Shown here in pieces: positions 21,883-23,912 of a DNA stretch of 37,490 bases. Origin of the DNA: Pirellulales bacterium (GTDB taxonomy: Bacteria; Planctomycetota; Planctomycetia; Pirellulales; Thermoguttaceae); the NCBI GenBank assembly GCA_016934075.1, contig JAFGTN010000664.1:1-37490 (forward strand). The letters are read 5' to 3'. The notes under the pieces were generated by a model. That model was not told where the DNA came from. It saw only the letters and a list, made by a program, of their open reading frames with translations, and did no database searches. Numbering within the stretch: position 1 is the first letter of the stretch; each line of letters starts with the position of its first letter. The position numbers were made by a program, and so were the translations under genes.

Positions 21883-23160
21883 ATGCTTTTTCGACTGGCT
21901 TGGCGATTATTCACGGAAATTTCACCACGGCTTGCAATTAAAGCCGGTTGGCTGTGGGTATATAAGGGCATGGGTGCTGTTCGTGCCTATCGCCGGCGTC
22001 TGCTTCGTGGGGAAGTATTTCCTCCGTTTTTGTTTTTGGCACTCACAAACGCCTGCAATCTTCGTTGCCACGGCTGCTGGATCGAGAGTCGGGGCGAGAA
22101 ACACAGCCTCGACAGCGAGGATGTCGATCGAGTGATTGCGGCCGGGAAGAGGCAGGGATCATATTTCTATACGCTATTGGGTGGCGAGCCGATGATCTAC
22201 GAAGGGCTTTGGGAATTGATCGCCCGCCATCCGGATTGCTATTTCCAGATCATCACAAACGGTATGTTCCATGACGAAGGTAATGTCGAACGGATACGCA
22301 AATTAGGTAACGTTACGCCGTTGGTAAGCATAGACGGCATGGCGGCCAGCAACGATGACCGACGCGGGCCGGATGTATTTGAAGCGGCCGTCGCAGGTAT
22401 GCGCCGTCTCAAACAGCGCAAAATCCTTTTCGGAGTAGCCACAACCATGACCAGCCGGAACATGGAAGAGGTACTCAGCGACGAGTATGTGCGGTTCATT
22501 ATTGAACAAGGAGCCATGTATCTATGGTTCTATGTCTTCCGGCCGGTGGGCGCCGATCCGTCTCCACACTATTGTGTCGGTCGCGAGCAGATGATAGAGT
22601 TGCGACGTCGCTTACTGGAATTGCGACGACGTCACCCGATTATGCTGATCGACACGTATTGGAACGCTCGTGGCGAGGCCGTTTGTCCGGCGGCTTTGGG
22701 CATGGGATACCACATTGGACCTCGGGGCAGTATAGAGGCGTGCCCACCACTTTCGTTTGCTTGCGAAACGATCCACGCCGAGGCGGAAAAGGGGTCAGGC
22801 ACCTTTTGCCGGAACGGCCCGGATGGTGCTTCGCACAAAAGGTGCCTGACACCTTTTCCGCCCAACGACAATGACAACCTGTTCGACACGATAAATCAGA
22901 GCGAATTCCTCCGCGGCTTTTCTAAATTTGTAAACGAGCGAACCCGCGGCTGCGTAATCCTCGAACACCCGCAGGAACTGGTCGAGTTTCTCAAAGCATC
23001 TGGCGTAAAAGACTACAGCGGCCGCGACGCCCTGGCCGAACTGGCTGCCGGAACGCCCCGAGGCAGCCACGACATGAAAGGCGAGGAGATACCGGAAGAT
23101 TACTGGGTTTATCGGTTTCTTAAAAACCAGTTGTTCTTCGGTATGAGCGGTTACGGTTAA
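21883..23160 (+). CDS. Radical SAM protein with SPASM-like C-terminal cysteines
   Basis: LTNACNLRCHGCWIES (CxxxCxxC); LLGGEPMIY; GSIEACPPLSFAC. Carries an in-frame palindromic repeat (22782-22862). Confidence 0.85.
   Translation: MLFRLAWRLFTEISPRLAIKAGWLWVYKGMGAVRAYRRRLLRGEVFPPFLFLALTNACNLRCHGCWIESRGEKHSLDSEDVDRVIAAGKRQGSYFYTLLGGEPMIYEGLWELIARHPDCYFQIITNGMFHDEGNVERIRKLGNVTPLVSIDGMAASNDDRRGPDVFEAAVAGMRRLKQRKILFGVATTMTSRNMEEVLSDEYVRFIIEQGAMYLWFYVFRPVGADPSPHYCVGREQMIELRRRLLELRRRHPIMLIDTYWNARGEAVCPAALGMGYHIGPRGSIEACPPLSFACETIHAEAEKGSGTFCRNGPDGASHKRCLTPFPPNDNDNLFDTINQSEFLRGFSKFVNERTRGCVILEHPQELVEFLKASGVKDYSGRDALAELAAGTPRGSHDMKGEEIPEDYWVYRFLKNQLFFGMSGYG
22782..22862. repeat. 81-bp REP/MITE-like palindrome (ggcggaaaaggggtcaggcaccttttg ... 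caaaaggtgcctgacaccttttccgcc) inside the radical SAM CDS
   Basis: 27-bp arms at 22782-22808 and 22836-22862 with one mismatch; total length is a multiple of three. Confidence 0.88.
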
Positions 23161-23823: not shown

Positions 23824-23901
23824 ATACTAACCCGAAGCGCAAGCGAGGTGGGCCAGTGTGTTGTTTGCCGATCTTCTCTCGCTCGCGCTTCGGGTTAGTA
23901 T
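23824..23901. repeat. Palindromic repeat, actaacccgaagcg family
   Basis: Arms atactaacccgaagcgcaagcgag (23824-23847) and ctcgctcgcgcttcgggttagtat (23878-23901), one mismatch. Confidence 0.85.
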
Positions 23902-23912
23902 TTAATGCGAAA

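Follow-up and report, generated by a model that had tools for sequence, protein, structure and literature searches.

How does a near-perfect palindrome come to be translated as part of an enzyme, and where did it come from? The window analysed here, the whole stretch of 37,490 nucleotides under study, carries such a palindrome in the middle of a radical SAM gene. The original prediction, made from the letters alone, took it for a dispersed REP-like element tolerated as coding sequence. We examined the host gene and its orthologs, the copies of the element in its own and in other genomes, the reading frames into which these copies are inserted, and the transposase genes that carry related terminal sequences.

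The palindrome and its host gene

The inverted-repeat search returned the palindrome at exactly the predicted coordinates, 22782-22862, with arms at 22782-22808 and 22836-22862 that are separated by a 27-nt gap, and with the expected single mismatch in the 27-nt arms (26 of 27 positions paired, 96% complementary). As had been proposed, it lies in frame within a radical SAM gene, a 425-aa open reading frame (ORF) on the plus strand, and the encoded peptide with its two extra cysteines agrees with the earlier description. The features of this locus are as follows.

21883..23160, plus strand: radical SAM protein gene carrying the insertion, 425 aa (ORF list; PF04055, E=3.8e-17)
22782..22862, plus strand: 81-bp palindrome with 27-nt arms (inverted-repeat search)
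22787..22857, plus strand: conserved 71-nt core of the mobile element (alignment of copies)
22787..22807, plus strand: left arm AAAAGGGGTCAGGCACCTTTT, TIR-like, with the motif GGGGTCAG (GGGGWSAS) (sequence and TIR comparison, PMC3733652)
22808..22836, plus strand: conserved spacer GCCGGAACGGCCCGGATGGTGCTTCGCAC (alignment of copies)
22837..22857, plus strand: right arm AAAAGGTGCCTGACACCTTTT (sequence and inverted-repeat search)
22778..22864, plus strand: net 87-nt insert (29 codons) compared with the empty sites of orthologs, its exact placement uncertain within a few bases (alignments with L009, L011, L012, L013 and L015)

In a protein search, orthologs aligned to residues 1-298 and to residues 329/331-425 of the window protein, with the two segments abutting. 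Between the conserved blocks the window protein has 55 aa, compared to 24-26 aa in the family orthologs, and nucleotide alignment with at least 12 orthologs gave a net gain of mostly 87 nt, or 29 codons. The predicted in-frame gain was therefore found, and its size, put at about 27 residues, had to be adjusted to this value. All orthologs with sequence on both sides of the site are without the peptide segment, and no radical SAM ortholog that was compared shares a copy of the palindrome, so that these sites are empty. The original prediction had also described a motif in this protein as SPASM-like, which was not borne out: Pfam and NCBIfam match the radical SAM core alone (residues 54-197 to about 239), and neither revealed a SPASM domain C-terminal to the core, the matches ending at residue 197-239.

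The inserted 29-residue segment, the Gly/Pro-rich AEAEKGSGTFCRNGPDGASHKRCLTPFPP, is placed between two conserved blocks, and the peptide CLTPFPPNDNDNLFDTINQSEFLR forms part of this insert. Most likely, the protein tolerates this segment as an exposed loop and the segment serves no function. A distant ortholog (L032, around position 2398) carries an unrelated insertion of ~64 residues at the same position, which suggests that this is an insertion-tolerant site in the radical SAM protein.

Dispersal, anatomy and a candidate transposase

Counting genomic copies, a check that accompanied the original prediction, revealed further copies in the own genome as well as in relatives. The own genome (7.44 Mb in 929 contigs, 78.6% complete) gave 14 matches at E<=0.001 to a 141-nt query in a similarity search. 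These comprise five close full-length copies (C44, C95, C122, C226 and C427), and the remaining matches include more diverged copies and end fragments. A 20-mer arm pattern matched 13+14 times in this genome versus 1+0 times for the reversed control, and on both counts the palindrome is not a product of chance. Neither of the outcomes that would have spoken against the original prediction, a segment present in all orthologs or a lack of further copies, was observed. With the 81-bp palindrome as query, eight genomes of the same family contained 3-80 scored matches each. A scan of 84,980 named genomes yielded at least 115 stretches; among the matches listed, almost all are from Planctomycetota/Pirellulales MAGs, plus one Lentisphaeria record. 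The spacer was present in 2 of 294 genomes in a phylum-wide sample, thus the distribution is patchy. The copies were collected by similarity or by the exact spacer pattern, with intact copies favoured, and the genomes are fragmented MAGs with short contigs and computational gene calls.

Two further observations concern the distribution of repeats. Six IMG/VR contigs classed as viral (L299-L304) carry the element, four of them with identical flanks; a virus could be a vehicle of the element, or these viral contigs could contain host DNA. The window also has a second palindromic repeat at 23824-23902 (ACTAACCCGAAGCGCAAGCGAG / CTCGCTCGCGCTTCGGGTTAGT), which occurs roughly 40 times or more in the own genome and is far commoner than the 71-nt element.

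Comparison of 191 distinct full-length copies showed that the recurring unit is the 71-nt core (22787-22857 in the window) and not the full 81-bp palindrome. The core is built from a 21-nt arm that recurs in reverse complement on the far side of a 29-nt spacer, and its length is exactly 71 nt in 181 of these copies. In most copies the palindrome extends into the 4-5 nt that flank the core, and the sequence of these nucleotides differs between copies and genomes. The spacer, which contains two small internal hairpins (GCCGgaaCGGC and GTGCttcGCAC), is nearly invariant and is common to copies whose arms differ greatly. The arms covary: across 43 distinct arm types, pairing is preserved at nearly all of the 22 outer positions, several of which show three or four pair types.

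The junctions were inspected for target-site duplications, and a register test across 175 copies gave no duplication of fixed length. About 5 of the 175 copies (L111, L177, L181, L223 and L127) are clearly bracketed by direct repeats, which measure 11-18 nt, vary in length and have no common register; most copies are without clear direct repeats. A 9-nt duplication around the window copy, noted by eye (6 of 9 matches), was rejected by the register test. Target duplications are not expected for IS200/IS605-type Y1 enzymes. We also looked for filled and empty alleles within one species, and found none. In one genome (G026; JAFGFF, Zod_Metabat.1299), the core often lies within a larger palindrome, GTAACCGTTCAC...GTGAACGGTTAC, which measures ~123 bp in all (L110-L128 and other loci), and some of these copies have 8-13-nt direct repeats outside; possibly, this is one element nested in another.

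The terminal inverted repeats (TIRs) that flank TIRYT transposases (Y1/HUH, RAYT-like) share the motif GGGGWSAS (PMC3733652), and this motif is present in the left arm of the window copy as GGGGTCAG at 22791-22798. Many copies have GGGGACAG or GGGGTCAG, and the variants GGTG and GGGACC occur as well. Related genomes contain Y1_Tnp proteins of about 225-246 aa that are flanked by TIRs. These proteins match Pfam Y1_Tnp, and match the NCBIfam 'REP-associated tyrosine transposase' mostly below the cut-off; of the five proteins compared with NF047646 (RAYT superfamily), four matched with scores under the curated cut-off. Y1 genes flanked by the arm sequence of the element as TIRs were found in G026 (L073 and L076) and in the genome CSMAG_2310 (L250), and those of L073 and L250, bordered by matching arms, encode 238-246 aa. 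The TIR in G026, AAAAAAGGTGCCAGGCACC, includes the dominant arm of the miniatures in that genome (30 copies), and the TIR in CSMAG_2310, AAAAAGGGACCAGGTTTAAT, includes the dominant miniature arm there (74 copies, with the arm AAAAGGGACCAGGTTTAATTT compared to AAAAAGGGACCAGGTTTAATAAA in the TIR of L250). In both genomes the dominant arm is identical to the TIR of the resident TIRYT over 17-19 nt. A match between genomes was found as well, between the TIR of L288 and the arm of L207. The A-tracts are longer in the TIRYT TIRs than in the miniatures, and the miniature spacer was not found in the two fully read TIRtrons (L073 and L076). In the own genome, TIRYT is present as fragments alone, one of which, with the TIR AAAAGGGGTCAGAACTATTT, is apparently split across two contig ends. 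A Y1_Tnp gene of the own genome (the RAYT L038, G000:C697:8650-8997) was considered as a source and rejected, as the palindromes on its flanks belong to another family (agcccgaagggctt and ccccaacggggttt); this gene and its palindromes apparently form a separate repeat/transposase pair.

In our view, the palindrome is probably a non-autonomous miniature, made of two inverted TIR copies around a conserved 29-nt spacer and mobilised by a TIRYT, of which the in-frame survivors are kept by selection. The TIRYT would recognise the folded single-stranded arms, as has likewise been proposed for TnpA-REP and REPs, and would then move or copy the hairpin to new sites. Of the insertions into genes, only those that add a multiple of three nucleotides in total and can be read through without a stop would persist, and frame-breaking events would be eliminated by purifying selection.

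It is unlikely that the copies were instead spread by a different transposase, or by replication or template switching, with the likeness between arms and TIRYT TIRs reflecting shared ancestry or hitch-hiking. Such a route would accommodate the few copies with 11-18-nt direct repeats, which are unexpected for Y1 enzymes, and the larger palindrome of G026, with its outer repeats of 8-13 nt in some copies. However, the long direct repeats are rare, variable and without a fixed register, and the 17-19-nt identity between the dominant arm and the resident Y1 TIR holds in two genomes despite the wide divergence of arms between genomes.

In-frame insertions into genes

The own genome contains five close copies, and four of these, including that in the window gene, are intragenic and open. 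The other three are located in the following genes.

L003: beta-propeller lactonase-like ORF (named from the sequence, no family search)
L004: 3-hydroxyacyl-CoA dehydrogenase (Pfam)
L005: CoA-transferase-like ORF (named from the sequence, no family search)

The fifth close copy, L002, has an anti-sigma-factor-like ORF on one side and a Fur-like gene on the other, both named by eye. For a larger set, a conservative codon-usage test was applied to 170 copies with usable flanks. This test placed 42 copies within genes, where the two flanks share an open frame; a single coding flank was seen for 59 and no coding flank for 58, and 6 are situated between opposite strands. There is a strong in-frame bias: of the 47 copies flanked by coding sequence on the same strand, 42 are read in a single open frame across both flanks (P=2e-15 relative to a share of 1/3, with the copies being related and not fully independent). 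Five apparent frame-shifting insertions were rejected as such, since each lies in the gap between two genes, immediately behind a stop codon. Frame-breaking copies were absent among the confident intragenic ones, all 42 of which read through open. The original prediction had presented the window locus as a rare view of a palindrome in coding sequence; since in-frame coding insertions account for four of the five close copies of this genome and for no fewer than 42 of the 170 copies in total, it is not rare within this family.

Random positions had two coding flanks in a common frame in 48% of cases, about twice the share of the copies, indicating that genes are avoided overall. The codon-usage classifier under-calls the own genome, where it missed the window copy, so that 25% intragenic is a lower bound. 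A count of spanning ORFs gave 53-62% of copies versus 66-75% at random positions, values that are inflated by shadow ORFs. The intragenic fraction is thus bounded, from about 25% to 60%.

The net gains vary between host genes and are all multiples of three, with 72 nt in rlmN, 75 nt in L140 and 87 nt in the window gene, and further gains of about 29 aa in xseA and about 30 aa in uvrA. The possibility that a fixed insertion length gives the frame automatically was rejected on these grounds (gains of 72, 75, 87 and about 90 nt), and since the gains differ between host genes, selection after insertion is the better account of the frame. The codon phase of the 42 in-frame copies is 1 or 2 and never 0. 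Phase 0 contains a stop in most copies, and in 11 it is open yet unused (P=0.012). At least four of the six frames are open in 45 of 52 distinct arm types, versus 19% of shuffled palindromes; this excess hints at adaptation to coding sequence, although the arms are related by descent, which makes the test weaker. We only tentatively raise the possibility that the family is adapted to genes, with arms and spacer kept free of stops so that most frames remain open, and with insertions read in a Gly/Pro-rich frame being retained, and that Y1 transposases would thereby add loops of 24-30 residues appreciably often.

The coded insertions are segments of 24-30 amino acids in dozens of unrelated genes, and peptides recur among the 42 in-frame copies, for example KGPGLICRNGPEGASHKLNLVPF; LNLVPFS is a peptide of the family. 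Of 30 host proteins tested, 26 had a Pfam match, and the families are unrelated; the host genes include uvrA, rlmN (L098), ribF (L081), xseA, recQ and a PBP. DNA-processing genes make up 6 of the 30 tested hosts (L089, L106, L108, L125, L207 and L255, comprising an SNF2 helicase, uvrA, xseA, recQ, hsdR and a UvrD-like gene). Intragenic REPs have been reported with a bias to repair genes, which these six hosts echo (PMC3733652).

The insertion might also have inactivated the radical SAM gene, which would then be a young pseudogene with an accidentally open frame. The near-perfect arms indicate that the insertion may indeed be recent, but the reading frame stays open before and after it, and identity to the G009 ortholog is no lower in the C-terminal part (78%, residues 329-424) than in the N-terminal part (71%). 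Moreover, the open frames in 42 of 42 confident intragenic copies are unexpected for decaying genes, and we give pseudogene formation a low probability. Less probable again is that the hairpin is kept as an intragenic RNA or DNA signal, acting in pausing or mRNA stability or as a gyrase site, with coding as a side effect. The predicted hairpin is very stable (about -54 kcal/mol as RNA), and arm pairing has been kept through many two-sided changes, as would suit a signal, but two copies of one TIR suffice to explain this pairing, the insertions are at unrelated positions in many unrelated genes, and no copy is common to the radical SAM orthologs. That the peptide is an ancestral segment of the radical SAM family, lost elsewhere, can practically be dismissed: the different, longer insert of L032 at the same place could be cited in its favour, but it is unrelated in sequence, all other orthologs sequenced on both sides are without the segment, and the dispersal of the same DNA across unrelated genes already contradicts it.

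Comparison with known systems

Based on its arms and its putative partner, the element most likely belongs with the TIR elements of TIRYT, and not with the GTAG/CGTC REPs. In common with TIRtrons/TIRYT (PMC3733652; Y1 subclass 2.1, PMC6006769) are the GGGGWSAS arms and a Y1_Tnp protein of ~225-246 aa between long TIRs, and the TIRs of TIRYT form dispersed families, as the element does here. TIRtrons differ from the present case, in which there are fixed 71-nt TIR-spacer-TIR units with a spacer that is conserved across genomes, and up to 80 scored matches per genome, many of them in frame in genes. For intragenic insertions, PMC3733652 lists GTAG/CGTC REPs in its main text and not TIRs, and REP-like repeats were not found near subclass 2.1 genes (PMC6006769).

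The REP/REPIN and RAYT systems likewise combine a spaced pair of inverted hairpins with a RAYT-superfamily Y1 transposase, but here the arms reach the ends of the element and equal the TIRs of full-length elements. The unpaired GTAG/CGTC tag is absent at both ends of the core, which is paired to its ends with AAAA/TTTT. Of the predicted dispersed REP-like element, the dispersed palindrome thus stands, whereas its assignment as a strict REP does not, in view of the missing tag and the TIRYT-type TIRs that form its arms. The element resembles a MITE in being short, non-autonomous, bounded by TIRs, dispersed and without its own transposase, but it has no fixed target-site duplication, and its putative partner is a Y1/HUH and not a DDE transposase.

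Intragenic REPs were described earlier (PMC3733652), thus intragenic palindromes are already known as a phenomenon. In the literature searched, we found no earlier description of a fixed 71-nt TIR-spacer-TIR unit together with a matching resident transposase, and the arm sequences were not found printed in a bacterial context. Insert segments of this type in annotated proteins should not be mistaken for family-specific domains or extra cysteine ligands.

In behaviour, the element parallels the Rickettsia palindromic elements (RPEs), dispersed palindromes that are found in frame in many unrelated genes and give recurrent peptides (PMC10969869). The likeness lies in the in-frame palindrome, the recurrent peptide and the unrelated hosts. 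The RPEs described in that paper are about 150 bp long and occur in Rickettsia (PMC10969869). The present elements, with cores of 71 nt, are from Planctomycetota, and the genomes that carry them also include a candidate transposase. Rickettsia supplies the best-known protein-coding palindromes, and planctomycetes now show like behaviour; the useful novelty is that a candidate transposase can be identified for a palindrome that codes for protein. The matching transposase genes make the building of protein segments by selfish palindromes testable, with an enzyme, a substrate and dozens of tagged hosts, among them UvrA, RlmN, RibF, ExoVII, RecQ and a PBP.
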